64,000 nucleotides of DNA from Bradyrhizobium sp. Rc3b. GTDB taxonomy: Bacteria; Pseudomonadota; Alphaproteobacteria; Rhizobiales; Xanthobacteraceae. Both the position numbers and the translations under genes were made by a program. Positions 1,276 to 42,403 of this stretch are shown here, one piece after another (the stretch's first letter is position 1; each line of letters opens with the position of its first letter). Below the pieces are notes generated by a model. It did not search any database. It saw nothing but the letters and a program-made list of their open reading frames with translations, and was not told the DNA's origin. The DNA is taken from assembly GCF_900114915.1 (NCBI RefSeq), contig NZ_FOUS01000013.1:124001-188000 (forward strand), read 5' to 3'.

Positions 1276-2132
1276 GTTCCTGCGTGCCATGGTGGGCCAA
1301 GCTGGGCATTAAGCTTGGTCTCGCGCGTCTGCCTGTTCCTTACGCCCTCTGGAAACGCATCGGGTTGTTCCGCCATGGCGAGATGATGGTTCCGGAGCGT
1401 GCAATCTCCGCGTTTGAAAGCCATTTCCAGTCCGCCGTTCAGCATGGGCAACTCCCTGCGAAGTTTCGTTCCCTCGAGCTTGGACCGGGAGACTCGGTCC
1501 TGTCGGGCTTCGCCGCCCGCGCGTTCGGTGCCGAAAAGGCATGGCTTGCAGATGCAGGACGGTTCGCCGAAACCGACATCGCCGGGTGCCGTGCACTTCT
1601 GGAGCTGCTTGCCTCGCGCGGGCGGGAAGTTGCGCCACTAAAGTCGGCGACCCTGCCGGATGCGATGAAGGAGTACGACGTCGTCTATCTGACGGAAGGC
1701 ACGAGCTCGCTCAAGACAATCCCTGACCAGTCGATCGATTTCTTCTGGTCCCAGGTCGTGCTCGAGCACATCTATCGCGACGAATTTCCGGCCCTGATGA
1801 AGGAGCTCCGCCGGATCGTGGCGCCCGGCGGGATCGGTGTTCATAGCATCGATTTCCGCGATCACCTTGGAGGCGGCTTGAACAATCTGCGCTTTGGAGA
1901 TGACGTCTGGGAGACCCCGGCTTTCCGGACCTCGGGCTTTTACACAAATCGCATCCGTCCGCGGGAAATGATCGGCCTGATGAAGGCGGCCAGCTTCAGC
2001 GTCGATGTTATCTCGGAGCAGCGATGGCCGGAGCTGCCGCTGGCTCGTGATCGGATGGCACCGCAGTTTCGGCCGTTTGCCGATGAGGACTTCATAACCT
2101 GCGAAATCCGCGTGATCATGAGGCCGGTGTGA
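1266..2132 (+). CDS. Class I SAM-dependent methyltransferase of the polysaccharide locus
   Basis: A 288-residue protein with a Rossmann-type methyltransferase core. The glycine-rich SAM loop reads LELGPGDS near residue 73. An acidic-loop region follows, then SIDFFWSQVVLEHI (motif IV region) near residue 157, and LRRIVAPGGIGVHSIDF, the usual strand 5 segment after the catalytic loop. It overlaps the preceding amidotransferase gene by 10 bases and the following glycosyltransferase gene by 4, so all three are probably translated together. A sugar or lipid-linked glycan acceptor is inferred from context. The acceptor cannot be read from the sequence. Confidence 0.85.
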   Translation: MGLSSCVPWWAKLGIKLGLARLPVPYALWKRIGLFRHGEMMVPERAISAFESHFQSAVQHGQLPAKFRSLELGPGDSVLSGFAARAFGAEKAWLADAGRFAETDIAGCRALLELLASRGREVAPLKSATLPDAMKEYDVVYLTEGTSSLKTIPDQSIDFFWSQVVLEHIYRDEFPALMKELRRIVAPGGIGVHSIDFRDHLGGGLNNLRFGDDVWETPAFRTSGFYTNRIRPREMIGLMKAASFSVDVISEQRWPELPLARDRMAPQFRPFADEDFITCEIRVIMRPV

Positions 2133-4233: not shown

Positions 4234-4266
4234 GACAGGCGGATCAGCACAAGAGAAGCGCCATGG

Positions 4267-5241: not shown

Positions 5242-5414
5242 GGCGAACTGACTTCCGAGCGGGGTTTGCGACACCATAGCTAGCTTTAAATGCAGGTCGC
5301 CTCAAGCGCTAGTAGCTTGGGCGAGGCCCGTCGCCGAAAGATAAGGGATTGCAACAGAGGTGCTTCCTAGCTAACGAGACGTTGCAGCGTAGTTCTGGCG
5401 AGGAGCTGACCGGT

Positions 5415-6698
5415 TTGCGAACTATCCGAAACATTGGCGTTATAGGCCTTGGTTACGTCGGCCTTCCAGTGGCGGTGGCGTTTGGTCGGGCCGGATATCG
5501 AGTCATCGGCTTCGACATCAGCGCGGAGCGGATCGCCGAGCTCCGCCGAGGTCAAGACCGTACGCGCGAAATCGAGATGGCCGATCTCCAGGTGGCACGG
5601 ATCGAATACACGAACCAGCCGTCAGGTTTGGCCGCGGCCGACTTCTTCATCGTAACGGTTCCAACTCCGATTGACGGCGCAAACAAGCCCGATCTCCGCG
5701 CGCTGTTGAGCGCATCCAAGTCCGTCGGCGGCGCCTTGAAGAAGGGAGACATCGTCGTCTACGAGTCGACCGTCTATCCCGGTGCGACGGAAGAGGAGTG
5801 CGTGCCAGTTCTCGAGCGAGCCTCCGGACTCAAGGCTGGCGTTGATTTCCACGTCGGATATTCTCCTGAGCGGATCAATCCCGGAGACAAGGAACATCGG
5901 TTCGAGACCATCCAAAAGGTGGTGTCCGCGCAGGACGCCGATTCGCTCAGGATCGTTGCTGATGTCTATGGCGCTGTCGTCAGGGCCGGCATCTATCAGG
6001 CGCCTTCGATCAAGGTCGCTGAAGCGGCCAAGGTGATCGAGAACACGCAACGAGATCTCAATATCGCCTTCATGAATGAGCTCTCGCAGATATTTCACAC
6101 GCTCGATCTCGATACCGGTGATGTGCTGGCGGCTGCCCGCACCAAATGGAATTTTCTCCCGTTTCAGCCCGGGCTGGTCGGCGGACACTGCATTGGGGTC
6201 GATCCCTATTATCTGACCCATCGCGCCGAGAGGGCGAAGTACCATCCTCAAGTCATCCTTGCGGGCCGGCGCATCAATGACGACATGGGTGCATGGATTG
6301 CGCGAGAGTGCATTCGGCGTCTCCTGAAGAGGGGATTGCGCGACGGGGTTGTCACGGTACTGGGCGTGACGTTCAAGGAGAACGTGCCGGACCTCCGCAA
6401 TTCCAAGGTCGTCGATATTGTTCGGGAACTGGAATCTTTCGGCATCAAGGTTCAGGTTAGCGATCCTTGGGCGAATCGCGCCGAGGCCCTTCACGAGTAT
6501 GGAATTGAGCTCTCCGATCACAAACAGCAGCAACCGGCCGACGCGGTCGTACTCGCCGTCGCGCACGACACTTTCGTCCATCTGGGCTGGCCATTCTTGC
6601 AGTCGCTCCTGAAAGAGGGGCACGGTCTAGTCTTGGACGTCAAGTCCCGGCTGGACCGGGCGAGCAAGCCGGCCGAGATAGAACTCTGGCGACTCTAG
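5415..6698 (+). CDS. UDP-N-acetylhexosamine C-6 dehydrogenase (WbpA/WbpO/TviB type)
   Basis: A nucleotide-sugar dehydrogenase of 427 residues from the TTG at 5415, which has GAGGAG nine bases upstream. A longer start at 5349 is possible but adds only unconserved residues. The NAD loop GVIGLGYVGLP is at the N-terminus. TVPTPID and ESTVYPGATEE follow. The catalytic Cys lies in GGHCIGVDPYYL, whose DPYYL continuation is typical of the UDP-HexNAc dehydrogenases rather than UDP-glucose dehydrogenases. The C-terminal domain starts at VLGVTFKENVPDLRNS. The enzyme oxidises C6 to a carboxylate in two NAD steps, making a uronic acid donor for polysaccharide synthesis. Confidence 0.92.
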   Translation: MRTIRNIGVIGLGYVGLPVAVAFGRAGYRVIGFDISAERIAELRRGQDRTREIEMADLQVARIEYTNQPSGLAAADFFIVTVPTPIDGANKPDLRALLSASKSVGGALKKGDIVVYESTVYPGATEEECVPVLERASGLKAGVDFHVGYSPERINPGDKEHRFETIQKVVSAQDADSLRIVADVYGAVVRAGIYQAPSIKVAEAAKVIENTQRDLNIAFMNELSQIFHTLDLDTGDVLAAARTKWNFLPFQPGLVGGHCIGVDPYYLTHRAERAKYHPQVILAGRRINDDMGAWIARECIRRLLKRGLRDGVVTVLGVTFKENVPDLRNSKVVDIVRELESFGIKVQVSDPWANRAEALHEYGIELSDHKQQQPADAVVLAVAHDTFVHLGWPFLQSLLKEGHGLVLDVKSRLDRASKPAEIELWRL

Positions 6699-8299: not shown

Positions 8300-8593
8300 G
8301 CCGCTCCTCCCAGGCTGTATCCTTTCTACCGTCCTGATCAAGTAGATCGTTGCGGAAGCTGCGGAAGCGAACTTGCGCAGCCGCAGTTGCCGGCGAGAGG
8401 CGTTCGAAGCGACTGCAGGTCCAGCGGTACTAATTTTATTGCTAGCGCCGTCAATATTGTGTGGCAAGGATACGTCGATCCCAGTATCCATTTCCAATTG
8501 AGCTTGGCTTGCTCAAAAGAACCAGTCCTTGCCGCCACCTACTGCTTACGAGCGCGAGGGCAAATTGTTTGTATTTCAAGAGGGCACCGCTAT

Positions 8594-9664
8594 ATGAACA
8601 GGCGTATTGCTTTGATCACCGGCGTAACTGGCCAGGATGGGGCCTATCTCGCCGAGCATCTGCTGTCGCTCGGTTATGTCGTGCACGGCATCAAACGGCG
8701 TTCGTCCTCATTCAATACTGCGCGCGTAGATCACCTCTATCAGGACCCGCATGCCGGCAATGTGCCGTTCCTGATGCACTATGGCGACATGACGGATTCA
8801 ACCAATCTGATCCGCCTGGTGCAGCAGATCCAGCCGACCGAGATCTACAATCTCGCCGCCCAAAGCCACGTTGCCGTCAGTTTCGAGACTCCTGAATATA
8901 CTGCTAACGCGGATGCGGTTGGCGTGCTGCGGCTTCTGGAGGCGATCCGCATTCTCGGTATGGAGAAAGAGACGCGGTTCTACCAGGCCTCGACCTCCGA
9001 ACTCTACGGCCTCGTGCAGGAAATCCCGCAGAAGGAGACCACGCCGTTTTATCCGCGCTCGCCTTACGGTGTTGCAAAACTCTATGGCTACTGGATCACG
9101 GTGAACTACCGCGAAGCTTACGGCATGTTCGCATCCAATGGCATCCTGTTCAACCATGAGAGCCCGATCCGCGGCGAGACCTTTGTAACGCGCAAGATCA
9201 CCCGTGGCGTCGCCCGCATAGAGGTCGGGCTGGAGGATATACTCTACCTTGGTAATCTGGAGGCCAAGCGCGACTGGGGGCATGCGCGGGACTACGTCGA
9301 GGGCATGCATATGATCCTCCAAGCCGACAAGCCGGACGACTTTGTGCTCGCCACCGGCGAAATGCGCTCAGTGCGGGAGATGGTCGAACTCGCCTTCGCA
9401 CATGTCGGCCGCCGCATCGAATGGCGCGGCAAGGGCGTTGATGAGATTGGAGTCGATGCCAAGAGCGGCAAAAGTATGGTTAAGATCGATCGCACCTATT
9501 TCCGACCCACTGAGGTCGATCTGCTCGTCGGCGACGCCAGCAAGGCGCGGCAGGTGCTCGGCTGGAAGCCGAAGCGGACCTTTGCCCAGCTCGTCGAGGA
9601 AATGGTAGCGAGCGATCTAGCGGAAGCAAAGCGGGACGCCGGAAGTGGCAAGCATACCGTTTGA
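8594..9664 (+). CDS. gmd: GDP-mannose 4,6-dehydratase
   Basis: A 356-residue Gmd. [15 protein letters not shown] forms the NADP site and [18 protein letters not shown] the Gmd-specific cofactor loop. The catalytic triad is in STSELYG and [32 protein letters not shown] and [19 protein letters not shown] complete the signature. The frame is open further upstream, but the ATG at 8594 has an AGAGGG site and matches the family start. It converts GDP-D-mannose to GDP-4-keto-6-deoxy-D-mannose for fucose, rhamnose or related sugars. The partner reductase directly downstream is broken, so the product needs an enzyme encoded elsewhere. Confidence 0.95.
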
Positions 9665-9955
9665 GCTCAAGGTAAGAGGGTTTATGTTGCCGGCCATCGG
9701 GCATGGTCGGTGGTGCACTCGTGCGCCGGCTCGCCCGAGAGGACATCAGACTCGTGACGGTCGCTTGGCGCGAGGTCGATCTCTGCAACCAGGCCGCCGT
9801 GTTCGACTGGTTCGCACAGATGCATCCGCAGGTCGTATTCCTCGCCGCCGCCAAAGCCGGAGGAATTTTCGCCAACGATATGTTGCGCGCTGAGTTCATC
9901 TACGACAACACCGTAATCGCGGCGAACGTTCTCCATGCTGCGCATCAAAGCGGCG
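9645..9955 (+). pseudogene. fcl: GDP-L-fucose synthase remnant, frameshifted and truncated
   Basis: The N-terminal third of GDP-L-fucose synthase can be followed across three frames. It starts at a GTG overlapping the gmd 3' end (IPFELK), moves to GKRVYVAGHR, then to MVGGALVRRLARED and REVDLCNQAAVFDWF through NVLHAAHQSG. Each frame change fits the loss of one G in a short G run, near 9671 and near 9698. Homology stops at about 9953, where the sequence changes to a methyltransferase-like fragment on the other strand. A normal protein is about 310 residues, so at most 100 remain and no active enzyme is possible. The gmd-fcl overlap is the usual operon arrangement, showing decay in place. Confidence 0.85.
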
Positions 9956-10121
9956 ACGATTGTGGCCCTTTGAGAAAAGGAGGCCGAAAACATGCTCATG
10001 CCATTCCTGGCTCCAACATCGATGATGACTGGCGATGCATCGATATGAGCAAATATGAGCTCTCCGACTGTCGCGCCTTCGTGAGCCACAGGCAGAACAG
10101 AGAAAAAGCAAGTGCTAGCAT
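9954..10121 (-). pseudogene. Fragment of a small membrane protein plus 5' part of a FkbM-like methyltransferase
   Basis: On the minus strand an ATG at 10121 opens with a hydrophobic segment containing SLFCLWLT. In another frame a GTG at 10089 gives SPVIIDVGARNGM, which resembles motif I of FkbM-type methyltransferases, followed by SFSQRATIV. That frame runs into the fucose synthase relic at about 9954, so only about 45 residues remain. The pair mirrors the intact small-protein/methyltransferase pair at 10138-11057 just upstream on the same strand, so it looks like a second, truncated copy of that arrangement. The family call rests on one motif. Confidence 0.5.
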
Positions 10122-10137
10122 CAGGGCGATCGTTCCC

Positions 10138-10938
10138 TCAGCGCCCTAGTAGGCGATAAGACGCCCCATAGAGTAGGGGAGCTAATTTGTACGCTCCAAG
10201 ACTCCAGAGAAGGCGGACGGCTGCGGGTTGGTGCAAGCCGAAGGATTTGCCCCACGTAGCCTTCATTGCTATGCGATTGCGCTCATCGAGGACAAGAACA
10301 CCGATCGAAGATGCTTCGAGTGGACGAACTGCTCCGACCCGCCTCGCATGATCGACATCTCGGCGGCGGAGTTCAACCCAATTGGGACCAGGGTTTGGGA
10401 TAGCGTTCTCGTAAAAAATGCTCCCATCGCCAATGCTGGTAAAATAATCGTACTCCATACTGCCCTGGTGCAGATTATGGCTGGCAACAACGGAAACATG
10501 ATCAGTCAGCGCGGCGGCCATCATGGAGATGGCAGGGGCGCCTTTTGGGCCGTCTGTGAGGAAGGCCGTTCGCTCTCGGGAATCTAGAGCGTAGCGCCCG
10601 AATTCCGCGTACGCGTTACCGCGGACTAAACGGAGAGATTTATAATTCACAAGGCGAAGACGGCATGCAACTGCGCGGTCTTGATCGCTCTCCAGGTCTA
10701 TGGAGATTATCTTGGCTCCGGTGCGATCACCCCAGTCGCCAAGGATGGCGGTCGAGTAACCATCCTGTCTGCCGCTTTCGATGACTTTTTTTATCTTTTG
10801 GGAGTCGCAAACGGCTAGAAAGAACGCCATTTCGCTAGGGAAAATCGAGCCTTCAACCCATCGTTCAACGTGGCCGCCATCGAGTATGAGCTTCGCAGCA
10901 GATTCTGCCGCCTCAGAAAGGGTAAGATTATGGGTCAT
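10138..10938 (-). CDS. Methyltransferase-like protein of the polysaccharide locus
   Basis: A 266-residue protein. The segment KKVIESGRQDGYSTAILGDW followed by AKIISIDLES looks like SAM-binding motif I and the acidic end of strand 2 of class I methyltransferases, and FLTDGPKGAP could be the strand 4 region. The ATG at 10938 overlaps the stop of the upstream small gene as TGATG, so I prefer it over an in-frame TTG at 10968. Composition is more AT-rich than the core genes nearby. Modification of a surface glycan is inferred from the locus. I do not recognise a named family, and catalytic activity is not proven. Confidence 0.65.
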   Translation of the reverse strand: MTHNLTLSEAAESAAKLILDGGHVERWVEGSIFPSEMAFFLAVCDSQKIKKVIESGRQDGYSTAILGDWGDRTGAKIISIDLESDQDRAVACRLRLVNYKSLRLVRGNAYAEFGRYALDSRERTAFLTDGPKGAPAISMMAAALTDHVSVVASHNLHQGSMEYDYFTSIGDGSIFYENAIPNPGPNWVELRRRDVDHARRVGAVRPLEASSIGVLVLDERNRIAMKATWGKSFGLHQPAAVRLLWSLGAYKLAPLLYGASYRLLGR

Positions 10939-30835: not shown

Positions 30836-32098
30836 TCATCGCGCATTGGCAGGCGCGTGCACCGGCCAGAGGTCGGCGCGCCAGCGGATCGCGATCGCCA
30901 GCATGGCGATGAAGCCGGCGGCGGCATAGAGCGAACCCGTCGCGGAATAACCGATGACGTCGATCAGGCTGCCGGCCGCGAGCAATCCGATCGGCAGGCC
31001 GTAGATCACCATCATGCGCACGCCCATCACGCGGCCGCGAAGGTGTGCGCTTGCGGTGCGCATAAGGATCACGGCCGCCGAGATCATGGACATGCTCTGG
31101 GCGATGCCGGCGAGCACGAGGCAGGCCATCGCCACCGGCATGGTCCTGATCTCGACGAATACCAGCAGCATGGCGTACCAGGCCAGCGTCGCGCCGATCA
31201 GAAGCCGGGCAATGCGCAGTCCGCCGACCAGGCTGAGCGTGATGGAGCCGATCAGCGAGCCGACCGCGAAGCTCGCCGAGAGGTAGCCGAGGCCGGTCTG
31301 GTCGGTATGAAAGATCTCCCGGGCGATGTAGGGCAGCAATCCGCCGGTGAACGGGAATGCGGTGAGATTGGCCAGGAAGGCGACGCACAGCGCCGCACGC
31401 ATTCCCGGGCCACTCCAGGCGTAGACGATCCCTTCCTTCAGATCGCCGAGCAGCCGCGAGATGGCATGGCTATTCGCCGGAAGATCGCTCGTGATGACGG
31501 CCCTCTTGGGCCGGGTCAGACACAGCATGAGAAGCGCTGCCACGAAGTAAAGACAGGCAATCGCCACGTAAACGAGGCCAATGCCGAGGACGGCGAACAG
31601 CCCGGCGCCCGTCAACGCTCCGGCGATGCGGGCGCTGTCCTGGGTCGTGCGCGCAACGCTGATGGCACCCACCAGCTGCTCGGCCGGCATGATCTCGGCG
31701 AGCAGCGCGCCGCGGACGCCCAGATCCGAGGGACGAATCAGGCCCATGACCGCGACGATGATCATGACGCTCAGCGGCGACAGATGACCGGTCAGCGCCA
31801 GAACCATGATGGTCGACGAGAGCACCGTATAGGCAAGACGCATCGCGACCAGCAGATCGCGATGGCCCATGCGGTCGCCGATCATGCCGAACACCGGCGC
31901 GACCAAGGTCCCGACGAACTGGAGCGAGGCAAGCACGGTCAGCAGCAGCACCGAGCCGGTCTCGACCAGGATGTACCAGCCCAGCACCAGCGTCTCGACC
32001 TCGAAAGCCCAGGAGGTGAGCAGGTCGGACGGCCATTGGAAGCGATAGTTGCGGATGCGGAATGGCGCGAGCGCCGACGCCCGCGTGGCTGCGCTCAA
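30836..32098 (-). CDS. MFS transporter (DHA/enterobactin-exporter-like group)
   Basis: A 420-residue membrane protein with about twelve hydrophobic helices. FGMIGDRMGHRDLLVAMRLA is the loop 2-3 signature and VARTTQDSARIAGALTGAGL resembles motif C-type helix 5 of EntS-like exporters. TRPKRAV marks the central cytoplasmic loop. The start is uncertain: the first codon at 32098 is TTG without a strong ribosome site. It converges with the Crp/Fnr gene six bases away. Efflux of a small compound is expected; substrate is unknown. Confidence 0.85.
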   Translation of the reverse strand: MSAATRASALAPFRIRNYRFQWPSDLLTSWAFEVETLVLGWYILVETGSVLLLTVLASLQFVGTLVAPVFGMIGDRMGHRDLLVAMRLAYTVLSSTIMVLALTGHLSPLSVMIIVAVMGLIRPSDLGVRGALLAEIMPAEQLVGAISVARTTQDSARIAGALTGAGLFAVLGIGLVYVAIACLYFVAALLMLCLTRPKRAVITSDLPANSHAISRLLGDLKEGIVYAWSGPGMRAALCVAFLANLTAFPFTGGLLPYIAREIFHTDQTGLGYLSASFAVGSLIGSITLSLVGGLRIARLLIGATLAWYAMLLVFVEIRTMPVAMACLVLAGIAQSMSMISAAVILMRTASAHLRGRVMGVRMMVIYGLPIGLLAAGSLIDVIGYSATGSLYAAAGFIAMLAIAIRWRADLWPVHAPANAR

Positions 32099-32377: not shown

Positions 32378-35300
32378 ATGTGGATAGGGTGGCCGAGGTT
32401 TGCCGCGCAGTCTTTTTGTTTTGTACTTCTCGTAAGCGTCATGGTCTCGCCGGGGCAGGCGGGGTCGCAAGACATGTTGGCGCTGATGCAGCGCATTACG
32501 GCGCTGGCGAAGGAGGGCCGCTATGGCGAGGCGGTCGGCTTTGCCAGGAAGCTCGTCGTTGAGGCCGAGAAAAGCACGGGGCGACAATCGCCCCTGACCG
32601 CGACCACGCTCGTCGTGCTGGGTCAGGCGCTCCAGACGAAAGGCGAGACCGCTGAGGCCGAAAGCGTGCTGAGGCGGGCCCTCGTCATTCGCGAGAAGAG
32701 CCTTGGTCCCAATCATCCCGATGTCGCAGCCGTGCTCGCTACGCTGGGCCAGATCGAGCTCGGCCAGAACCGGCTCGGCGATGCCGAACGCGACATGTCG
32801 CGCGCGATCGCCATCGACGAGAGCGTGCTGGGCCCTGACCATCTCACCACGGCGCTGGCGCGGATGCAGCTCGGCAATCTCCGTCACCGCCAGTTGAAGG
32901 AGACCGAGGCGCTCGATCTGTTCAACCGTGCGCTCGTGGTGTTCAGGAAATCTCCGGAACAGGCTGACATCATGATCCCGGTGACCTTGAACAACATCGC
33001 GGAGGTCAATCGGGCGCAAGGGCGGTTGCAGCAGGCCGAGGCGAGTTTTGCCGAAGCGCTTGTGCTTCAGGAGAAGCAGCATGGCCCGGACAGCATCTAT
33101 CTGACTGCGACGCTCAACAATCTCGGCGAGCTCCGGCGGGCGCAGGGACGGCTCCCGGAGGCCGAGCAATTGGCCCTGCGGACTTTGGCCATCAGGGAGA
33201 AGGCGCTCGGACCTGATCATCCCGATGTCGCCGCGAGCCTCAACAATCTGGCCCTGGTGTTCTCGCGCGAGGGCCGGGACGCCGAGGCCGAGGGGCTGCT
33301 GACCCGGGCGCTCGCGATTCAGGAGAAGACCGTCGGGATAGCGCATCCGAACGTGGCGACGGCATTGAACAACCTTGCAGGGGCCTGGGCCCATCTCAAT
33401 CGCAAGCAGGAGGCGGAGCAGCTGTTCCGCAAGTCGCTGGCGATCCGCGAGAAGGCGCTCGGTCCGGCGCATCTGGATGTCGCGATCGCGCTCGACAATC
33501 TGGTGACGCTGATGAGCGAGGCCGATCGTTACGCCGAGGCCGAACCGTTCGCGCGCCGGTCGCTTGCGATACGCGAGGCTGCGGTCGGGCATTCTCACCC
33601 GCTGGTCGCCAACAGTCTCAACAATCTGGCCGTCATTCTGGACAGCACCGGCCGGCCGCAGGAGGCCGAGCCGCTGCTGAAGCGCGCGCTGGATATCCGC
33701 CTGCGCGCTCTCGGCGAGCAGCATCCGGATGTTGCCAACAGCTTCGCCAATCTCGGCGCCCATCATATCGATTCGAAGGATTGGCAGCAGGCCCGCGACG
33801 CCTTCGCGCGCGCGGTCGCGATCCAGAACGGCCGCCGCGCCGCCGAGCAGGAGAGCCGCGGCGATGTGAAGGTCCATGAAGAGACCAATCCCTATCCCGG
33901 ACTGATCGTTGCTGCCTATAATCTCGCGAGCGCCAATGCGGGGCAGGCCGGCGCATTGCGATCGCAGGCGTTCGAGGCGGCGCAATGGATCGGTGACGAG
34001 CAGGCTGCGCGGGCAATCGCCGGCATGTCGGCCCGCATCGCCGATGGCAGCGGGGATCTCGCCGCGCGCGTCCGCGAGCGGCAGGATCTCGCCGCGCAAG
34101 CCGTCGCGACCGACAAGATGCTCGTGGCGGCGATCTCGCAGGCGGATGCTGCGCGCAACCCGGCGGCGGAGCAGGCGCTTCGTGCCCGAGCCTCAACCAT
34201 CGCAGGTCAAATCCGGGAATTGGATCGCACGATCGCTGCGCAGTTTCCGGACTATGCAGCGCTCGTCACCAAGGCGCCGATTGCAATCGAGGATGCCCAG
34301 AAGCAGCTTCGTCCCAACGAGGCGATGTTGCTGTTCACGACGACATCGCGCGCCACCTTCGTCTGGACCGTGACGCGCTCGGACGTGCGCTGGCATTCGG
34401 CAGATCTCGGCGAAAAGCAACTCGCTGAGGCCGTCGGCGCCTTGCGCTGCGGTCTGGATACGGATGCATGGCTGGACAAGGCGTCCACATGTCCGCAGAA
34501 GCTCGGCCGCAAGACCCCGCTTGGGGTGGACGAGCCATTGCCGTTCGACCAGGAGCGAGCCTTTGCGCTCTACCAGGCGCTGCTCGGGCCTGTCGCGCGC
34601 GACATCGACGGCAAGGAGCTGATCCTGGTGCCGTCAGGCCCGCTTGCGACGCTGCCCTTTCAGGTCTTGCTGACCGAGAAACCGGCTGCCGGCCAGGACC
34701 TCGCGAAGGCGCCCTGGCTGGTCAAGCGATTTGCCACCACAGTGCTGCCCTCCGTCTCCAGCCTCAAGGCATTGCGGCAGGTCGCACGCAAGAGCGCCGC
34801 GTCGAAACCGTTTCTCGGCGTCGGCAATCCCGTGCTCGACGGCGATGGCCGCAGCGATGTCGCGATGGCGCGTGCCAAGCTGGCGCGCCAGATCCAGACC
34901 TGCGCCGCTATTCCGACACAGACGACCCAGGTCGCACAACGGAGCTTGCGCGCCGTGGACGCGCTGTCGGGCGGCACGGCGGACATCGTCCAGCTCAGGC
35001 GGCAGATGCCGCTGCCGGAAACTGCGCTCGAACTATGCGCGGTGGCCAGCACCTTCGCGCCCATCAAGGGCGACGTCATCCTAGCCGGCGACGCCTCCGA
35101 GACCAGGATGAAGGCGCTCGGCCAAAGCGGCGATCTCGCGAAATACCGCATCCTGCATTTTGCGACCCATGGCGCGCTTGCGGGGCAGGTGCGTGGATCG
35201 ATCGAGCCAGGACTCATCCTCAGCCCGCCAGCGGCGCCGACGCCCACCGATGACGGCTATCTCTCGTCGTCGGAGATATCCGGCCTCAAGCTCGATGCCG

Positions 35301-35608
35301 ATTGGGTGATCCTGTCGGCCTGCAACACCGCCGGAGGGCAGGCCGCCAATTCGGAGGCCTTCTCCGGTCTTGCGCGGGCGTTCTTCTATGCCGGCACGCG
35401 CGCGCTGCTGGTGTCGCACTGGGCGGTGAACTCGGACGCCGCGGTCGCCATCACCACCGGTACGATCGACGCGATGAAGACGCATCCCGATATTGGCCGC
35501 GCCGAGGCGCTGCGTCGCTCGCTCTCGGCACTGATCACCAAGGGCGGCGACAGCGCGCAGCCCGCAACTTGGGCGCCCTTCGTGCTGGTGGGGGCCGGCG
35601 CCATGTAG
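32378..35608 (+). CDS. Exported TPR-CHAT protein (caspase-like peptidase domain)
   Basis: A 1,076-residue protein from ATG 32378. The frame is open much further up, but that part is antisense to the MFS gene. An N-terminal hydrophobic signal (FAAQSFCFVLLVSVMVSPG) suggests export. Residues about 60-480 hold ten tandem 42-residue TPRs of the kinesin-light-chain type, each starting with a G-P-x-H-P-like turn (for example GPDHPDVAASLNNLALV). A helical spacer follows. Residues about 720-1076 are a CHAT domain with the catalytic His in LHFATHGALAG (His931) and the Cys in LSACNTAGGQ (Cys982), the caspase-fold dyad. It is probably a periplasmic peptidase or scaffold. It is first of four plus-strand genes that include two cyclases. 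Substrate is unknown. Confidence 0.88.
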   Translation: MWIGWPRFAAQSFCFVLLVSVMVSPGQAGSQDMLALMQRITALAKEGRYGEAVGFARKLVVEAEKSTGRQSPLTATTLVVLGQALQTKGETAEAESVLRRALVIREKSLGPNHPDVAAVLATLGQIELGQNRLGDAERDMSRAIAIDESVLGPDHLTTALARMQLGNLRHRQLKETEALDLFNRALVVFRKSPEQADIMIPVTLNNIAEVNRAQGRLQQAEASFAEALVLQEKQHGPDSIYLTATLNNLGELRRAQGRLPEAEQLALRTLAIREKALGPDHPDVAASLNNLALVFSREGRDAEAEGLLTRALAIQEKTVGIAHPNVATALNNLAGAWAHLNRKQEAEQLFRKSLAIREKALGPAHLDVAIALDNLVTLMSEADRYAEAEPFARRSLAIREAAVGHSHPLVANSLNNLAVILDSTGRPQEAEPLLKRALDIRLRALGEQHPDVANSFANLGAHHIDSKDWQQARDAFARAVAIQNGRRAAEQESRGDVKVHEETNPYPGLIVAAYNLASANAGQAGALRSQAFEAAQWIGDEQAARAIAGMSARIADGSGDLAARVRERQDLAAQAVATDKMLVAAISQADAARNPAAEQALRARASTIAGQIRELDRTIAAQFPDYAALVTKAPIAIEDAQKQLRPNEAMLLFTTTSRATFVWTVTRSDVRWHSADLGEKQLAEAVGALRCGLDTDAWLDKASTCPQKLGRKTPLGVDEPLPFDQERAFALYQALLGPVARDIDGKELILVPSGPLATLPFQVLLTEKPAAGQDLAKAPWLVKRFATTVLPSVSSLKALRQVARKSAASKPFLGVGNPVLDGDGRSDVAMARAKLARQIQTCAAIPTQTTQVAQRSLRAVDALSGGTADIVQLRRQMPLPETALELCAVASTFAPIKGDVILAGDASETRMKALGQSGDLAKYRILHFATHGALAGQVRGSIEPGLILSPPAAPTPTDDGYLSSSEISGLKLDADWVILSACNTAGGQAANSEAFSGLARAFFYAGTRALLVSHWAVNSDAAVAITTGTIDAMKTHPDIGRAEALRRSLSALITKGGDSAQPATWAPFVLVGAGAM

Positions 35609-35780
35609 CCGACCAGCGCGCCGGCGCGTGCTGAACCGGGATGAGCGAAGCCGCGCCCGCGGCCGTTAACCATCCACCGCTTGCTCTTCCTGTACGACGA
35701 GCCCATGCTTGCCAGGTTGCTGGGCCCATCGGACAGGTCCAGTAGACCGCGTCATCGCGGCTTCCGCGGGGTCTTGACCC

Positions 35781-38700
35781 ATGAACTGCTCTTGCTGCGG
35801 ATCCGAAGTTCAGAGCGGCTTTGCTTTCTGCCCGAAGTGCGGCACGAAGCAGCCGAACGCGTGCCCCGGCTGCGGCTATGCATGCGCACCGGATTTCGCG
35901 TATTGCCCGAAATGCGGTGCCCTCGTCAGTGAGGCTCCCAAAGCCGGGGGACAGGCGCAGCCGAGCCGGCCGACAGCGCCGGTCAGAGCGTCGTCACCGC
36001 CGCTGGCGCCGGCGGTCGACGCTCACCAGGCTTTTCGACCGCAGCCGGGCAGGATGGACAACGAAGCCAACCGCCGCACCATTACCGTGCTGTTTGCCGA
36101 TCTCAGCGGCTTCACCGCGATGAGCGAGCGCCTCGACCCCGAGGTCATGCAGATGCTTCAGAACGAATTGTTCGAGGAGCTGACGGAAGCGGTGCAAGGC
36201 TTTGGCGGCTTCGTGGACAAATTCATCGGCGATGCGCTGCTAGCGCTGTTCGGCGCGCCAGCAGCGCACGAGGACGATCCGGAGCGGGCGGTCCGCGCTG
36301 CACTCGACATGATCAAGCGGACGGAGCAGCTCAGCGAGCGTGCGAAGGTCTATGCCGGCGCCCCGCTGCAGCTCCACATCGGCATCAATACCGGGCACGT
36401 GGTTGCGGGCGGACTGGGTGTCGGCGCTGCCAAGTCCTATTCGGTAACCGGCGACACGGTGAATACCGCGCAGCGATTGCAGTCGATGGCGCCGCCGGAC
36501 GAAGTGCTGGTCGGGCCGTTGACGCACCGCCTGACGCGGCATGCGTTCTCGTATGAATCGCTCGGAGAGGTCTCGCTCAAGGGCAAGATGGGCAGTGTCC
36601 TGGTCCATCGTCTCAAGGGACCGCTCGACATGCCGCGTGCGGCGCGAGGCCTCGACACGCTGGGCCTCAGTGCGCCGCTGATCGGCCGCGACGCCGAGCT
36701 TGCCCGCATGATCGGCAGCCTCGATCGCGCGTGCGGCGGTGCGGCGCAACTGGTGCGGCTGGTCGGCGAAGCGGGTATCGGCAAAACGCGCCTAGTGAAC
36801 GAATTCGTCGCCCGCATCCGCGATGAGGAGCGCTTCGCAGGTGTGGCGATTCGGCAGGCCGCCTGCTCGCCACTCGGCGAACAATCCTACGGCACGCTCG
36901 CCGCGGTCCTGCGCAGCGCCTATGGCATCGCGCAGAAGGCCAGCGCCGCGGCGGCTGAGGCCAGGCTGGCTGAGGCGCTGTCGGAGCTTGGCCTTGCGGC
37001 CGGAGAGGCAGAGCGGCTGATGCCGCTCTATGTGCATGTTCTTGGCCTCGGCGGCCCCGACGCCGCATTGCAGCACATCGAGCCGGAACAGCTTCGGCGG
37101 CAGATCTTTTTTGCGATCCGGACCGTTTTCGAACGGCGCCTGGCCTTGTCACCGCTTCTGATCATCGTCGAGGATCTGCATTGGGCCGACGCCGTCTCCC
37201 TTGAGGCGCTGCGGTTCCTGATGGATCGGCTGGAGCGCACGCGGTTGATGCTGTTGTTTACGCATCGGCCAATGCTGGAGCTGGATCAGTTCGGTTCGGG
37301 TCGGATCAGCCACACGACCCTTCGATTGCTTCCGCTCGGTGACGCCGACGGACAGAACTTGCTGGCGGCTTATTTCAGTCACGGTTGGCGCGAGCCGCCG
37401 GGAAATCTGTTCAGTCGAATCCTGGAGCGCGCGAGCGGCAATCCGCTTTTCCTCGAGGAAATCATCCGCGGTCTCATCGAGGCCGGCGCCTTGGAGCGTG
37501 ACGGCTCGCAGTGGCGGATAAAGTCGGATGAGGCCGCCGCCGACATCCCGGCAAGCATTCAGGCGCTGTTGCTGGCGCGGCTGGACCGGCTGCCGCATGA
37601 GGTGCGCCGGCTGGCCCAGGAGGCCGCGGTGATCGGCCCGCGCTTCGACGCGGCTCTGCTCGGTGCGACGGCAACCGCGCCGGCGAAGGTCGAAGTGGGC
37701 CTCGAACTTCTGTGCGACGCCGAGATTGTCGAGGAGGTTGCGGGCGCAAACTCGATCTCGCTGCGATCCTACCGTTTCACGCAGACCATGCTGCAGGACG
37801 TGATCTATCAAAACCTGCTGTTGCAGCGGCGGATCGAGCTCCATGGACGGATTGGTGCCGCGCTGGAGCGGCTCTATGGCAGCGAGCCCGAACGGCTCGA
37901 GGACCTCATCCTGCTCGGCCATCATTTCAGCCTGAGCGCGCACAAGTCGAAAGGCGCGCGCTATCTGCGCGCGGCCGGCGATCGTGCACGCGCGACCTAT
38001 GCCAATGCCGATGCCATCCGTCTCTACCAGCAGGCCCTCGCCATGTTGTTGACCGGCGGCGAATGCGTGCCGGAGCGCCTGGTTCTATACGAGCGGATCG
38101 CGGACCTCTGCGCCGCGGCGGGCCGCCGCAACACGGCCGAGGAGCACTACCAGAGCGCACTGGAGGGGCACCGCGCCGCAGAGGACCGCATTGGCGAAGC
38201 GCGAATCCTTCGCAAGCTTGGCAGGTTGTTGTGGGACGCCGGCAAGCGCATCAACGCAGAGAGGCATTACGCCGAGGCGGCTGACCTGCTTGGAGGGACC
38301 GATGCGCCGATCGAACGGGCGCACCTCTTGCAGGAGCGCGGTCGTCTCGCGTTTCGCATGGGCGATCACGTGGCCGCCGCGACATGGGCGGACGAGGCGC
38401 TTGGCTACGCCCGATCCGTCCCGGCGGACGCGGACGAGCAAGCCGGATTCGAGGCGGCGCGCGCCATTGCCGAGGCTCTCAATACCAAGGCGGTTGCGCT
38501 GGCACGGCTTGGACGACACCAGGATGCGGTGCGCGAAGTGGAGCAAAGTGTCGCGGCAGCCGAAGCCGCCGGCCTTCTCAATGTGGCCTGCCGCGGCTAC
38601 ACCAATCTCAGCGTGCTCTACACGATCGTTGACCCGGCGCAGGCCATGGAGGTTTGCCGGCGCGGACTGGACGTCGCGCATCGTATTGGCGATCTCGGGT

Positions 38701-39098
38701 TCCAGGCGCGTCTTCTCGCCAATTTTGCCGTTGCCTGTTGCACCTTCACGGACAAATGCACCGACGAAGGTGTGCCGGCTGCCGAAAAGGCAATCGAGAT
38801 CGACCGTGCGCTCGATCAGCGCGAGCATCTCCCCGTGCCCCTGATCGTGCTCGGGCAAATCCATCAATGCCATTTCCGGCCCGATCAGGCCGCCCGCTGC
38901 TACAATGAGGCCATCAAGGTCGCGAGCGAAACCGGCGAGCCGCAGCAGCTTTTTCCGTGCTATGATGGTCTTGCGACGCTGAACCTTGATCGCGGCGACA
39001 TGCCCGAGGCCGAGCGGTATTTCGCGCTGGCCGATGACGTCTGCACCAAGCACGGGCTTGATCCCGCCGGACTGATTGTATTGCCATTTCTTGACTAG
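35781..39098 (+). CDS. Zinc-ribbon / class III adenylate cyclase / AAA ATPase / TPR signalling protein
   Basis: A 1,105-residue cytoplasmic multidomain protein. Residues 3-46 are a double zinc ribbon (Cys3/5/6, 17, 20, 28, 31, 42, 45). Residues about 98-270 are a class III cyclase with metal Asp107 and Asp151, Lys147 in VDKFIGDA, and Asn228/Arg232 in GDTVNTAQRL, so all catalytic residues are present. Residues about 310-640 are a STAND-like ATPase with Walker A GEAGIGKT (329-336) and Walker B LLIIVEDLHWAD near 460. The rest is helical, TPR-like. It lies 172 bases after the CHAT gene and 21 before a redoxin gene. It probably makes cAMP under control of the ATPase/TPR sensor; the signal is unknown. 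Confidence 0.9.
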   Translation: MNCSCCGSEVQSGFAFCPKCGTKQPNACPGCGYACAPDFAYCPKCGALVSEAPKAGGQAQPSRPTAPVRASSPPLAPAVDAHQAFRPQPGRMDNEANRRTITVLFADLSGFTAMSERLDPEVMQMLQNELFEELTEAVQGFGGFVDKFIGDALLALFGAPAAHEDDPERAVRAALDMIKRTEQLSERAKVYAGAPLQLHIGINTGHVVAGGLGVGAAKSYSVTGDTVNTAQRLQSMAPPDEVLVGPLTHRLTRHAFSYESLGEVSLKGKMGSVLVHRLKGPLDMPRAARGLDTLGLSAPLIGRDAELARMIGSLDRACGGAAQLVRLVGEAGIGKTRLVNEFVARIRDEERFAGVAIRQAACSPLGEQSYGTLAAVLRSAYGIAQKASAAAAEARLAEALSELGLAAGEAERLMPLYVHVLGLGGPDAALQHIEPEQLRRQIFFAIRTVFERRLALSPLLIIVEDLHWADAVSLEALRFLMDRLERTRLMLLFTHRPMLELDQFGSGRISHTTLRLLPLGDADGQNLLAAYFSHGWREPPGNLFSRILERASGNPLFLEEIIRGLIEAGALERDGSQWRIKSDEAAADIPASIQALLLARLDRLPHEVRRLAQEAAVIGPRFDAALLGATATAPAKVEVGLELLCDAEIVEEVAGANSISLRSYRFTQTMLQDVIYQNLLLQRRIELHGRIGAALERLYGSEPERLEDLILLGHHFSLSAHKSKGARYLRAAGDRARATYANADAIRLYQQALAMLLTGGECVPERLVLYERIADLCAAAGRRNTAEEHYQSALEGHRAAEDRIGEARILRKLGRLLWDAGKRINAERHYAEAADLLGGTDAPIERAHLLQERGRLAFRMGDHVAAATWADEALGYARSVPADADEQAGFEAARAIAEALNTKAVALARLGRHQDAVREVEQSVAAAEAAGLLNVACRGYTNLSVLYTIVDPAQAMEVCRRGLDVAHRIGDLGFQARLLANFAVACCTFTDKCTDEGVPAAEKAIEIDRALDQREHLPVPLIVLGQIHQCHFRPDQAARCYNEAIKVASETGEPQQLFPCYDGLATLNLDRGDMPEAERYFALADDVCTKHGLDPAGLIVLPFLD

Positions 39099-39119
39099 GT
39101 CATGTGAAGGAGTTCAACC

Positions 39120-39800
39120 ATGTCAGAACGTCATGTCGATGGACCGCTGCAACCGGGTGATCGCGCACCGAACATCGTGCTGGACGCCATCACCCGCGAA
39201 GGGAAGATCGCGCTCGAGGATTTTCGCGGGCAAAGTCCGATATTGGTCGGCCTGTTTCGAGGCCTGCACTGCCCGTTCTGCCGCCGCCATATCGCGGCCC
39301 AGGCGCAGCTTGACGCGGCACTGCGCGACAAGGGCGTCGAAAGTCTGACGGTCGTCAATACGCCGATCGAGCGTGCTCGGCTCTACTTCCGTTATCACCC
39401 GTTGCCCAATCTGCTTGCCGCGTCCGATCCCGAGCGGATCTCGCACCGCGCGTTCGGCCTGCCCAATCTGGAATTCACCGAGAAGGAAACCGAGTGGCCG
39501 CGCAAGGTGGGCATGGATGTGGTCATGAGCATGCAAGTGGACATTCCCGGAGAATTGCCCGGGCCGATGAATCGTTTGGCGGCCGCCGAGCAGCTCAACA
39601 ACAAGGATGGCTACGAGATGATGGAGGCCGATCAGCGCATGGCGGCAACCGGCCAGGGTCAGCTATTCGGCCAGTTCCTGCTCGATCGGGAAGGGGTCGT
39701 GCGCTGGGCCTTTACAGAAGTTCCGGAAGGCGGCCAGCGCATGTTCGGGATGCCGAGCCCAGGTGAGTTGATGTCGGCAGCCTCGCAGGTGGCGGGCTAG
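39120..39800 (+). CDS. AhpC/TSA-like thioredoxin-fold protein with CPFC motif
   Basis: A 226-residue thioredoxin-fold protein. GDRAPNIVLDAITREGKIAL is the AhpC/TSA-type start. The active site is GLHCPFCRRHIAAQ (Cys51, Cys54), a CxxC in place of the single peroxidatic Cys of classical peroxiredoxins. GQFLLDREGVVRWAF is the later strand-turn-strand. There is no signal peptide, so it should be cytoplasmic. The ATG has GAAGGAG upstream and begins 21 bases after the cyclase-ATPase gene, so it is probably cotranscribed. A thiol-disulphide or peroxide role linked to the neighbouring signalling proteins is an inference. Confidence 0.82.
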   Translation: MSERHVDGPLQPGDRAPNIVLDAITREGKIALEDFRGQSPILVGLFRGLHCPFCRRHIAAQAQLDAALRDKGVESLTVVNTPIERARLYFRYHPLPNLLAASDPERISHRAFGLPNLEFTEKETEWPRKVGMDVVMSMQVDIPGELPGPMNRLAAAEQLNNKDGYEMMEADQRMAATGQGQLFGQFLLDREGVVRWAFTEVPEGGQRMFGMPSPGELMSAASQVAG

Positions 39801-39937
39801 GCATCGTCGCGCGGTTGGCGTGGTGCCCCTGACCGCAGCAGGCACGAGCCGGTGCGCGCGAGGTGCTGCCGCCATTTTCCCGACCACGCCTGCGCATGAC
39901 GAACGATTAATCCGAGCGCACTTAATCCGAGCGCACA

Positions 39938-41383
39938 ATGACCGACATTCAGGAAAGGCTCCTCGAAAGCAAGATGACCGAGATCGAGCGGGCCCGATCC
40001 TGGAGCCCCCGCGTGATCTCCAAGTTCGAAACGCTCATCAGGAGCGGTGACGATCTATCGCTCTACCGCGTCAATCCGCTGGCATTCGCGCGCGACCGCG
40101 CCATTGCAGAGCCGGAAAGTATTGACCTGTTTCTCTATGCGACGAGAAGCGGGCTATTCGAGATGAGCTGGGACGTTGTTTGTCCCCAATCCGGCATGGT
40201 GCTCGATAGCTTCGGCGCCTTGCGCACGCTCAAGACGCACTATGTTTGTGGTTTGTGCGACGTCACTGGTGAAACCGATCTCGACGACTTCATAGAGGTC
40301 ACGTTTACGGTATCGCCCCAGCTTCGGCGGCTTCCGTTTCATGATCCTGCCTCCCTCTCGGTCGAGGATTTCCATTGGAAGCTTCGATTTCTGAATGACG
40401 CGCGGATACCTGGCCAACAAATCCGATTTCTCGACTATTTGCATGCGTTCGTTCGCGGCCTTTCGTTCTTGCCGCCAGGCTCCGCCACGACCATTCGTTG
40501 CGAACTCGGTCTCGGTGCGCTGGCGGGGGTCAATATTCAAAGCCAGGCCGCGTTCGTCGTCGCGGTGGCCGGCGAGCCGACAACCTCGCCGACAATCCTG
40601 CGAATTGGATACGACGGACAGCGCTTTTCCCCCTCGCTGGCCGCCGTGCCGCCCGGCCCCGTCATTGTCGAGGCGGAGAACCGCGGATCTACGCGAGGCT
40701 CCCTGCTCCTGATCAACTGGCCGCCTGAGGTTCTGGCTCAAGCGATCAAGCCGCCGCTTGATTTCGATCCCTACATGTCCGGCGGGATGTTGCTTGCGAG
40801 ACAAACGTTTCGCCGCCTGTTCCGGTCAGAACGCGTGGACGAAAAGGAGGGCCTGGGTATTCGGCAGGTGACCCTGCTGTTCACGGATCTCAAAGGTTCG
40901 ACCGCCATGTACGAACGGCTCGGCGATCTCAATGCCTATGCGCTGGTCCGCGAACATTTTGCTTTGCTCGGTGCGACCGTTCAGGAACATTCCGGGGCCA
41001 TCGTCAAGACGATCGGCGATGCGGTCATGGCGGTCTTCTCTCGCCCGACGGACGCGATTTCGGCGGCGCTCCACATACTGGGGGAAATCGAACGTTACAA
41101 TTCCGACCATGGCGATCCGAGCATCATCCTGAAGATTGGAGCCCATTGCGGCCCCTCCATCGCCGTGACCCTGAACGACAATCTGGATTATTTCGGCCAG
41201 ACCGTAAACGTTGCCGCGCGTGTCCAGTCGCTGGCGGACGCGGGCGAGATTTGTATCTCGGAGGCGCTGTATTCGGCGCCGGGAGTGAGCGATCTCCTTT
41301 CCGGGCATGCAATCGCAGTGTTTGAAGCTCCTCTTCGCGGCGTTGAAGGAAATGCCAGCGTGTATCGTGTCGTGCCCGGGTAG
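39938..41383 (+). CDS. Class III adenylate cyclase with DUF5939-like N-terminal domain
   Basis: A 481-residue soluble protein. Residues 1 to about 290 form a DUF5939-like region: YRVNPLAFARDRAI, ATRSGLFEMSWDVVCPQSG with a paired CGLC further on, and a beta-rich segment before the catalytic domain. Residues about 300-480 are a class III cyclase with metal Asp in LLFTDLKGSTAM and IVKTIGDAVMAVF (Lys and second Asp), and Asn/Arg in GQTVNVAARVQ. All residues needed for activity are present. It follows the redoxin by 137 bases and may have its own promoter. It is the second, differently built cyclase within 6 kb. Confidence 0.88.
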   Translation: MTDIQERLLESKMTEIERARSWSPRVISKFETLIRSGDDLSLYRVNPLAFARDRAIAEPESIDLFLYATRSGLFEMSWDVVCPQSGMVLDSFGALRTLKTHYVCGLCDVTGETDLDDFIEVTFTVSPQLRRLPFHDPASLSVEDFHWKLRFLNDARIPGQQIRFLDYLHAFVRGLSFLPPGSATTIRCELGLGALAGVNIQSQAAFVVAVAGEPTTSPTILRIGYDGQRFSPSLAAVPPGPVIVEAENRGSTRGSLLLINWPPEVLAQAIKPPLDFDPYMSGGMLLARQTFRRLFRSERVDEKEGLGIRQVTLLFTDLKGSTAMYERLGDLNAYALVREHFALLGATVQEHSGAIVKTIGDAVMAVFSRPTDAISAALHILGEIERYNSDHGDPSIILKIGAHCGPSIAVTLNDNLDYFGQTVNVAARVQSLADAGEICISEALYSAPGVSDLLSGHAIAVFEAPLRGVEGNASVYRVVPG

Positions 41384-41388
41384 GACCC

Positions 41389-42228
41389 TTACGTCCCTTG
41401 CCGGGGCAGCTTCTCCGCGAGCGCGACTGCCATCGCCGAGATCAGCGGTCGCATGAAATAGGCGTCTTCCGCGGGCGAGACGTCCGTCCGCAGTCCATGC
41501 GCAGCAAGCTCGCCCGAAACCGCCGGGCCCACCGACGCAATCAGCGTCCGGTCGAAGCCGGCGCGCAGCTTCGCCTCGCTGCCATGCGCCTTCGCGGCCT
41601 CGATCAGGCGGCGGACCTGGCCGAGATTGGTGAGCGCGACGGCATCGATCCGCCCCGCGGCCATGTCGTCGATCGCGGTGACGATGTTGGCATCCGCTGC
41701 CTTGGAATCGTAGGCATAGGGCAGCACGGCATCGACCTCGGCGCCTTGCGCGGCAAGGGCACCGATCAGCGCGCCATGGTCCTTGTCGGGATAGAGCTGA
41801 AGGCCAAGGCGCCGGCCCTTCAGGTCGAGCTTGCCCAGCATCTCGATCACGCCCTCGGTGGTCGGTTTCTCCGTGGTCTGCTGAGCCTCGAGGCCGATCT
41901 CACGCAGCGCCTTGCCGGGCTTCGGGCCGCGGGTGAATTTTCGCGATCCGGCGAGCGCCGCGACAAACGCGCCGTCGAGCCCACGCGCCCGCGCGAGCTT
42001 CATGATCCGCCGAAGGCCTTCGCCGGTCATCAGCACAAGGTCGTCAAGGGGCCTGTCGATGGCGCGGCGGATCCAGGCCTCGACCGGAGCAGGGTCCGGT
42101 GCATCCTGGATGGTAAACATCGGGCATTGCACGACCTCGGCGCCTTGCTCGGCCAGAAGCTTCGAGAACTGCGCCTCCTCGCGCGTTTCCAGGATCAGGA
42201 TGCGGTAGCCGTTCAAGCGCTCGGCCAT
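41389..42228 (-). CDS. Uroporphyrinogen-III synthase (HemD) family protein
   Basis: A 279-residue two-domain protein of the HemD fold. It starts RLNGYRILILETREEAQFSK with domain 1. LVLMTGEGLRRIMKLAR and SRKFTRGPKPGKALREIGL follow. TEKPTTEGVIEML leads into the second half. AVALTNLGQVRRLIEAAKA and LIASVGPAVSGELAAHGL match HemD-like blocks. The ATG at 42228 has GGAG eight bases upstream; the frame stays open beyond it, but that part is antisense to purU. HemD sequences diverge widely, so a role in tetrapyrrole synthesis is likely but may be taken by a paralogue elsewhere. It is convergent with the cyclase gene, five bases apart. Confidence 0.78.
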   Translation of the reverse strand: MAERLNGYRILILETREEAQFSKLLAEQGAEVVQCPMFTIQDAPDPAPVEAWIRRAIDRPLDDLVLMTGEGLRRIMKLARARGLDGAFVAALAGSRKFTRGPKPGKALREIGLEAQQTTEKPTTEGVIEMLGKLDLKGRRLGLQLYPDKDHGALIGALAAQGAEVDAVLPYAYDSKAADANIVTAIDDMAAGRIDAVALTNLGQVRRLIEAAKAHGSEAKLRAGFDRTLIASVGPAVSGELAAHGLRTDVSPAEDAYFMRPLISAMAVALAEKLPRQGT

Positions 42229-42403
42229 GGGCGTACTCCGGTTATTCAAAGCAATCGTCCGTTCATCCTGACTCCGCGCTTCAGGTCGAAGCAAGTCTTG
42301 GGATTGGCGCAAGGGGACGTCGGTGATAGAGCAGGGCGCAAATCGCGGGTCGTTCCGCATCATTTGCCCAAACCTTCATCAAGAGCCAAGCCTGTTCATC
42401 AAC

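Follow-up and report, generated by a model that had tools for sequence, protein, structure and literature searches.

The mammalian soluble adenylyl cyclase ADCY10 has a class III cyclase-AAA/STAND-TPR architecture, and the Lys-Thr substrate pair and stimulation by bicarbonate are traits of class IIIb (soluble adenylyl cyclase-like) enzymes. Craspase Csx29 is a protease that joins tetratricopeptide repeats (TPRs) to a CHAT domain. To our knowledge, the signal sensed by most class III cyclases of rhizobia is open. Rhizobia are unusually rich in these enzymes; two papers give 32 in Bradyrhizobium japonicum and 24 in Sinorhizobium meliloti (PMC554113) and 28 in S. meliloti (PMC13001267). For the S. 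meliloti class III cyclase CyaB, excerpts of the latter paper propose that a signal is perceived via the interacting enzyme Dxs (PMC13001267), a precedent for a rhizobial cyclase that perceives through a partner enzyme. Rhizobial SAM-domain proteins joining cyclase and AAA ATPase domains (PMC4653623, in excerpt) and cyclic nucleotide monophosphate (cNMP) cyclases of nucleoside triphosphate (NTP)-dependent conflict systems (PMC7159879, in excerpt) have also been described, and redoxin terms do not occur in the excerpts of PMC7159879. Here, we analyzed a 64,000-nucleotide (nt) stretch of Bradyrhizobium sp. Rc3b (contig NZ_FOUS01000013.1, positions 124,001 to 188,000 of the forward strand), which we call the window. 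A first-pass annotation had joined four consecutive genes of this window, P1 to P4, into one possible signalling island. We propose instead, with moderate confidence, that the functional unit is the P2-P3 operon, in which a cysteine-rich TPR region of the P2 cyclase (Cys-TPR) would sense thiol redox (or metal) and be serviced by the redoxin P3. The features of this pair, in window coordinates, are as follows.

35781 to 39098, plus strand: P2, a protein of 1105 amino acids with double zinc ribbon, class III cyclase, STAND/AAA_16 and TPR (Pfam)
36075 to 36605, plus strand: cyclase domain of P2, residues 99 to 275, with Asp107/Asp151, Lys147/Thr223 and Asn228/Arg232 (Pfam and conservation)
36675 to 37253, plus strand: STAND/AAA_16 NTPase of P2, residues 299 to 491, with the P-loop kept (Pfam and conservation)
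38421 to 39095, plus strand: C-terminal Cys-TPR of P2, residues 881 to 1105, with invariant C937, C959, C987, C993, C1030, C1060 and C1088
39099 to 39119, plus strand: gap of 21 nt between P2 and P3, with a ribosome-site-like AAGGAG stretch
39120 to 39800, plus strand: P3, a thioredoxin-fold redoxin of 226 amino acids with an invariant C51-x-F-C54 (Pfam AhpC-TSA/Redoxin)

P2 and P3 form a conserved two-gene unit whose location in the genome is not always the same. The same 60 genomes of the genus were searched with each of P1 to P4 (G and L numbers below are our handles for genomes and loci). First-look candidates for P2 numbered 16 to 95 per genome; P2 orthologues, full length at 85 to 100%, were found in 13 of the 60, and the others reach at most 36% among the matches listed. 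Orthologues of P3 (88 to 100%) are present in exactly these 13 genomes and adjoin P2 in every one of them, always across a gap of 21 nt. P3 matches at E ≤ 0.001 extend to 33 of the 60 genomes, and beyond the 13 orthologues they consist of a 45-residue fragment (G037) and otherwise of matches that are both short and weak. When 248 genomes of the family were searched with P3 (E ≤ 1e-8), nine were positive, the window genome included, and P2 lay directly upstream in all nine; five of these belong to another genus. The Bradyrhizobium border genes are missing around the pair at four loci (three of the other genus and one, G286, of the window genome's genus), so the pair occupies other genomic sites there. 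A scan of named genomes placed P2 directly upstream of P3 on the same strand at 80 of 80 loci, whose surroundings differ; P2 is complete at 79 of them and split into two pieces at the remaining one (L207). These loci, which are the best 80 of 216 relatives and from which records close to the window genome may have been left out, come from Bradyrhizobium (18), Tardiphaga (2), Bosea (2), Mesorhizobium (30), Rhizobium (22), Sinorhizobium/Ensifer (5) and another member of the Rhizobiales (1); they overlap in species with the numbered genomes and do not form a sample independent of these.

Further families of Alphaproteobacteria likewise have P2 and P3 side by side (G489, G374 on a short contig, and three genomes of family f278), with P2 at 46 to 51% and P3 at 35 to 42%, and on a plasmid of the betaproteobacterium Variovorax SRS16 (P2 about 45%, P3 35%, gap 23 nt). 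A profile of the Cys-TPR, with at most eight candidates scored per genome, hit 4 of 353 genomes of the class at E ≤ 1e-15, all of them at ≤ 1e-103: the window genome, G374, G489 and G616. A P3 search of 385 genomes of the class was positive for G374, G489 and G616, found a solitary P3-like gene in G527 and gave a weak match in G595; its positive genomes, G527 for example, may not all belong to the set of 353. Among plasmid records, 134 carry P3 (E ≤ 1e-5) and 23 carry the Cys-TPR (E ≤ 1e-20).

Several details of individual pair loci may be recorded here. On the Variovorax plasmid, a gene with a cyclic-nucleotide-binding domain lies divergently and directly upstream of the pair (L334, 4448 to 5158) and is a candidate receptor. 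P3 stands in tandem duplicate behind P2 in B. iriomotense NBRC 102520 (L258, 5289 to 6678) and also in G374 (L188). At L134, a short unit like GAGGTCTTGGGCCATGA is repeated three times just before P2, about 60 nt ahead of its start at 8081, and single related copies of the GAGGTCTTGGGCCATGA-like unit occur in several other genomes.

To describe the two proteins, we extracted 101 P2 and 101 P3 sequences, of which 96 each are distinct; the P2 row of L207, an interrupted gene that lacks the N-terminal part, was dropped from the distance analysis. Pfam assigns P2 a double zinc ribbon, Guanylate_cyc (2.3e-27), AAA_16 (5.2e-21) and TPR. The catalytic residues of the cyclase are retained almost without exception: D107, K147, D151, N228 and R232 are kept in all 95 rows that cover them and T223, which with K147 makes up the Lys-Thr pair, in 94. 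Against the PF00211 cut-off of 21.9 bits for class III cyclases, P2 scores 96.2 and P4 75.7. The AAA_16 region at residues 299 to 491 has largely conserved GEAGIGK and EDLHWAD motifs and is followed by TPRs, which places P2 among the STAND NTPases. P2 is not a TOMM kinase/cyclase fusion (TIGR03903), since it scores 254.5 bits versus a cut-off of 705.75 and matches only model positions 275 to 922.

The new observation on P2 concerns its C-terminus. Seven cysteines within the last 170 residues (C937, C959, C987, C993, C1030, C1060 and C1088) are present without exception in the 96 distinct orthologues, and they are also kept in five divergent P2 proteins (Variovorax, Phyllobacterium, G616, S. 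medicae and G374). Orthologues have 8 to 11 cysteines in the last 200 residues, whereas 17 unlinked paralogues have 1 to 5 (mean 2.4), and no P3 match was found beside these 17 paralogues within a flank of up to 1.5 kb. Within those 200 residues, seven of nine cysteines are invariant, versus 61 of 200 positions overall (chance, 0.004). Toward two far clades, the Cys-TPR is about as conserved as the cyclase domain (distances of 0.46 and 0.45, with 0.53 for the preceding TPR and 0.57 for the STAND region). A structural model of residues 690 to 1105 is entirely helical and consists of helical repeats (predicted local distance difference test score [pLDDT], 90.8; predicted template modeling score [pTM], 0.85), and its fold matches are generic TPRs.

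P3 belongs to the thioredoxin-fold AhpC-TSA/Redoxin group, with Pfam matches to AhpC-TSA (1.9e-8; 34.7 bits versus a cut-off of 26) and Redoxin (3.1e-8; 34.0 bits versus 26.6). C51 and C54 of its CPFC motif are kept in 96 of 96 distinct orthologues, and P82, present in all 12 rows of one alignment, is probably the cis-Pro. The peroxidatic motif of peroxiredoxins is PxxxT/SxxC. It is absent around C51 of P3, where invariant Gly44 and Gly48 occupy the places of the Pro and the Thr/Ser in two alignments. Because P3 keeps CPFC and lacks this motif, it is likelier to be a thiol-disulfide oxidoreductase than a peroxidase. Its nearest solved relative by sequence is ResA (8.9e-5), which is also the best fold match (1.4e-4), the latter obtained from a poor model. 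P3 is not a SelL-related redox protein, as its weak match to NF040769 (50.6 bits) falls far under the cut-off of 120.

Taken together, these features of the pair point to a switch in cell signalling whose state would depend on thiol chemistry. P2 would be a cytoplasmic STAND-type class III cyclase with a zinc ribbon, in which the AAA_16 STAND NTPase acts as the switch and the TPR superhelix as the sensor. The seven cysteines in the last 170 TPR residues may sense thiols, by a reversible disulfide, a persulfide or a thiol-held metal. P3, a putative thioredoxin-fold thiol-disulfide oxidoreductase that would be co-transcribed with P2 and produced in step with it, may act on P2 by setting or resetting the redox state of its cysteines. 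A change in that state could release or restore the STAND switch and in this way gate the synthesis of cyclic AMP (cAMP), with control presumably running from the cysteines to the cyclase; cAMP, the predicted product of P2, would then be sensed elsewhere in the cell by regulators of the Crp type. More tentatively, P2-P3 may constitute an undescribed redox-signalling module that turns thiol redox state into a cAMP signal, with an essential seven-Cys ladder on the TPR that is read and reset by P3; it would have spread as a mobile pair among rhizobia, other Alphaproteobacteria and one betaproteobacterium, and the P3 family at large may service several cyclase types.

A number of observations weigh against this proposal. 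The structural model of P3 is poor (pLDDT, 58.8) and informative only as a thioredoxin fold. Eleven solitary copies of the P3 family occur in four Rhizobiaceae genomes without an adjacent P2, and no cyclase lies closer than 3 kb to 8 of these copies; plasmid p42f of Rhizobium etli likewise holds a solitary P3. In S. fredii CCBAU 83666, P3 is retained beside a remnant of P2, and among the 23 plasmid records that match the Cys-TPR, 5 carry only part of it. G616 has a P2 without an adjacent P3, its P3-like gene lying on a different contig. Directly behind their P2, S. medicae WSM419 and S. meliloti LMB1 have only a P3-like fragment. The transition-state Asn column of the cyclase is Ser in the Variovorax P2. 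Distances among P2 and among P3 sequences correlate (r, 0.87 to 0.93), as is expected from shared descent. Finally, the P2 cysteines could bind metal instead of cycling.

Some of these exceptions have further features. Both WSM419 and LMB1 carry an intact, distant P3-like gene (38 to 39%) in convergent orientation within about 500 nt (L333, 7726 to 8773; L336, 6800 to 7818), and the P3 partner has likely been replaced in these two strains. In favor of the proposal, 3 of the 11 solitary P3 copies have a different class III cyclase at a distance of no more than 3 kb, against an expectation of about 0.3 (p about 0.003), although the 3-kb limit was picked after the data had been viewed, two of the three cases come from one genome and one (L325) is a truncated P3. 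The cyclases concerned are a cyclase-nSTAND1-WD40 protein, a cyclase-TPR protein and a CHASE2 cyclase. At L320, a 1541-amino-acid cyclase-nSTAND1-WD40 protein (130 to 4755) is divergent from a solitary P3 paralogue (67%) at 5364 to 6008, and this is possibly a second kind of cyclase-redoxin partnership. The solitary paralogue on p42f of R. etli CFN42 (68%; L331, 5345 to 9579) lies near soxR and a vapBC-like toxin-antitoxin pair.

The metal possibility partly overlaps with the proposal of a thiol sensor. Here, the Cys-TPR would be a site for Zn, Cu, Fe-S or a similar metal or cofactor that senses metal, oxygen or nitric oxide (NO), and P3 would assemble or repair this site or protect its thiols rather than signal via disulfides. 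Seven invariant cysteines in about 150 residues of helical repeat are a pattern that such a site would also give, and the N-terminal double zinc ribbon suggests that P2 already binds metal. However, the invariant C-terminal set contains no CxxC or CxxxC pairs, its tightest spacing being C987-x5-C993, and the partner P3 is a thiol oxidoreductase rather than a known metallochaperone; we regard a metal or cofactor site as fairly unlikely. P3 might instead be a general thiol-protection enzyme in the operon of a mobile cyclase, sharing transcription with P2 and no mechanism. The abundance of solitary P3 paralogues on plasmids and in Rhizobiaceae fits this idea, but the pair stays together at different loci across families and in one betaproteobacterium, the cysteine array of P2 is missing from the 17 paralogues examined, and the second P3-like gene recurs within about 500 nt at the two Sinorhizobium loci where P3 is a fragment. 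Mere co-residence of this sort appears rather improbable to us.

It is far less probable still that P2-P3 acts against phages or in other conflicts as a Pycsar-like system, in which the STAND cyclase would be sensor and messenger maker at once. Cyclase-domain matches to PADLOC Pycsar cyclase models do occur (6e-21), and the distribution of the pair is patchy, with an empty site in non-carriers. However, the PADLOC matches of P2 and P4 are confined to the cyclase domain, for which reason an assignment as an anti-phage system was rejected. Among the four genes, Pfam shows no effector of the transmembrane or TIR type that bears a cyclic-nucleotide domain; the partner is a redoxin and not a cyclic-nucleotide-activated effector. 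Of ten flanking genes checked, two ABC ATPase genes match defence ATPase models (mad3 and mad8 among them), and the remaining eight have no match. The remaining alternative, that all four genes act together as a caspase-like/cyclic-nucleotide signalling island, depends on the neighbors of the pair, which are the following.

32378 to 35608, plus strand: P1, a TPR-CHAT protein with a signal-like N-terminus (Pfam), a local neighbor outside the conserved unit
39938 to 41383, plus strand: P4, a DUF5939-class III cyclase protein (Pfam), a facultative companion of P2-P3
30155 to 30829, plus strand: Crp/Fnr-type regulator (Pfam), part of the site and also present in genomes without the pair
30836 to 32098, minus strand: major facilitator superfamily (MFS) transporter (Pfam), left border of the variable site
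41389 to 42363, minus strand: HEM4 (uroporphyrinogen-III synthase-like; Pfam), right border of the variable site

The description of these genes in the first-pass annotation was largely accurate. Order and spacing of the four plus-strand genes, with gaps of 172, 21 and 137 nt, are real, and Pfam agrees with the assigned domains: TPR plus CHAT (2.9e-50) in P1, cyclase/STAND/TPR in P2, redoxin in P3 and DUF5939 (6.2e-44) with Guanylate_cyc (4.7e-21) in P4. The catalytic motifs said to be intact in both cyclases are present, as are both halves of the CHAT His-Cys dyad of P1 (HFATHG at 927 and LSACNTA at 979). Export of P1 had also been suggested and, judged by inspection, its signal-like N-terminus makes it look exported; P1 may thus not share a compartment with P2 to P4. 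The longest open reading frame of P1 begins at 30857, and homologues elsewhere match the ATG at 32378 instead. Two neighboring cyclases are unremarkable in themselves because class III cyclases are common in this genome (30 PF00211 matches in 8.4 Mb). A Crp/Fnr gene does lie upstream, but it ends about 1.5 kb away rather than the 2 kb given, with the opposite-strand MFS gene intervening.

The linkage of the four genes across genomes, which had been put forward as the check on the island, does not bear it out. The full arrangement, with all four frames open in the window genome, is confined among the 60 genus genomes to that genome and a near twin (G005). P1 orthologues (at least 68%) occur in 8 of the 60, with fragments in G039 (77% over 145 residues) left out of this count, and adjoin P2 in only 2 of the 8; in one (G021), P1 stands at the same site and the P2-P3 pair is missing, and in five, P1 is elsewhere in a genome that has no P2 orthologue. 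P4 orthologues (at least 65%) occur in 9 of the 60, adjoining P3 in 3 and lying elsewhere in 6. These adjacency counts led us to reject a conserved four-gene system. Some evidence nevertheless favors wider linkage: two more loci from named Bradyrhizobium (L199 and L207) have CHAT upstream of the pair and a decayed remnant of P4; P4 accompanies the pair at additional Bradyrhizobium loci (L196, L197, L206 and L211) and at 3 of 30 Mesorhizobium loci (L220, L239 and L255, in differing orientation or at differing distance); and G831 has P4 fragments near the pair. P4 is a facultative companion of P2-P3 and no fixed member, and the position of P1 beside the pair is probably incidental. A joint island of all four is, in our judgment, highly unlikely. 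What largely fails is the four-gene or CHAT-containing unit. Since the cyclase-redoxin pair is strongly conserved and P4 turns up nearby, perhaps by chance, in Mesorhizobium as well as Bradyrhizobium, a reduced version of the idea, in which cyclic-nucleotide and redox functions are coupled, still stands.

The genomic setting was compared in genomes without the pair. HEM4 matches were present in 46 non-carrier genomes; 20 of these loci were inspected, in addition to G021. MFS directly adjoins HEM4, with Crp/Fnr nearby, at 12 of the 20 (L151 to L155, L157 to L162 and L168), and the other eight differ. The Crp/Fnr gene was thus ruled out as an island member, being kept in the 12 empty-site loci. 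The locus between MFS and HEM4 is a site of variable gene content; purU accompanies the HEM4-like gene on its right side. At G021 (L138; G021:C1:6640000-6652000), the TPR-CHAT gene is found between MFS and HEM4, P2-P3 are missing and the upstream stretches are about 80% like those of the window; the P1 match there is in two pieces, so that its frame may be broken near the start. Homologues of the window genes at 8459 to 10149 lie between Crp/Fnr and HEM4 in distant genus genomes (L165, L166 and L170), beside HEM4 in L164 and as a piece in L169, which suggests a general insertion hotspot.

If the proposed role of P2-P3 is correct, the thiol redox state would be linked to cAMP signalling in plant-associated bacteria. 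Because this subfamily of P2 brings both a candidate signal partner and seven fixed cysteines, the signal that it senses is directly testable.

Finally, we compared the pair with known systems. P3 resembles ResA and the Bcp/AhpE peroxiredoxins in its thioredoxin fold and redox-active Cys but is longer, has CPFC, lacks a signal-like N-terminus (by inspection) and has no PxxxT/SxxC around C51. P1 resembles Csx29 in joining TPRs to a CHAT domain with His and Cys motifs; unlike Csx29-type proteins, it has a signal-like N-terminus and is an unstable neighbor of a cyclase. Pycsar cyclases have a similar cyclase domain, and P2 differs from them in its STAND-TPR architecture, its redoxin partner and the lack of an effector among the four genes. 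CyaB, as presented in excerpts of PMC13001267, is without sensory domains and its partner Dxs is a metabolic enzyme, whereas P2 has its own STAND/TPR sensor and a co-encoded redoxin partner. Searches of the mostly open-access literature for cyclases in connection with redox, STAND or TPR, for rhizobial cyclases and for the annotation terms listed no description of the P2-P3 pair or of a seven-Cys TPR. ADCY10 and the many rhizobial paralogues share with P2 the order of cyclase, P-loop STAND NTPase and TPR as well as the Lys-Thr pair, and sequence comparison also matches P2 to the solved cyclase domains of ADCY10. P2 differs from ADCY10-type proteins in having only one cyclase domain, a double zinc ribbon at the N-terminus, a seven-Cys C-terminus and a co-encoded redoxin. 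Cyclase-STAND-TPR proteins are a known kind, of which P2, with its redoxin partner and its seven-Cys TPR, appears to be a variant.

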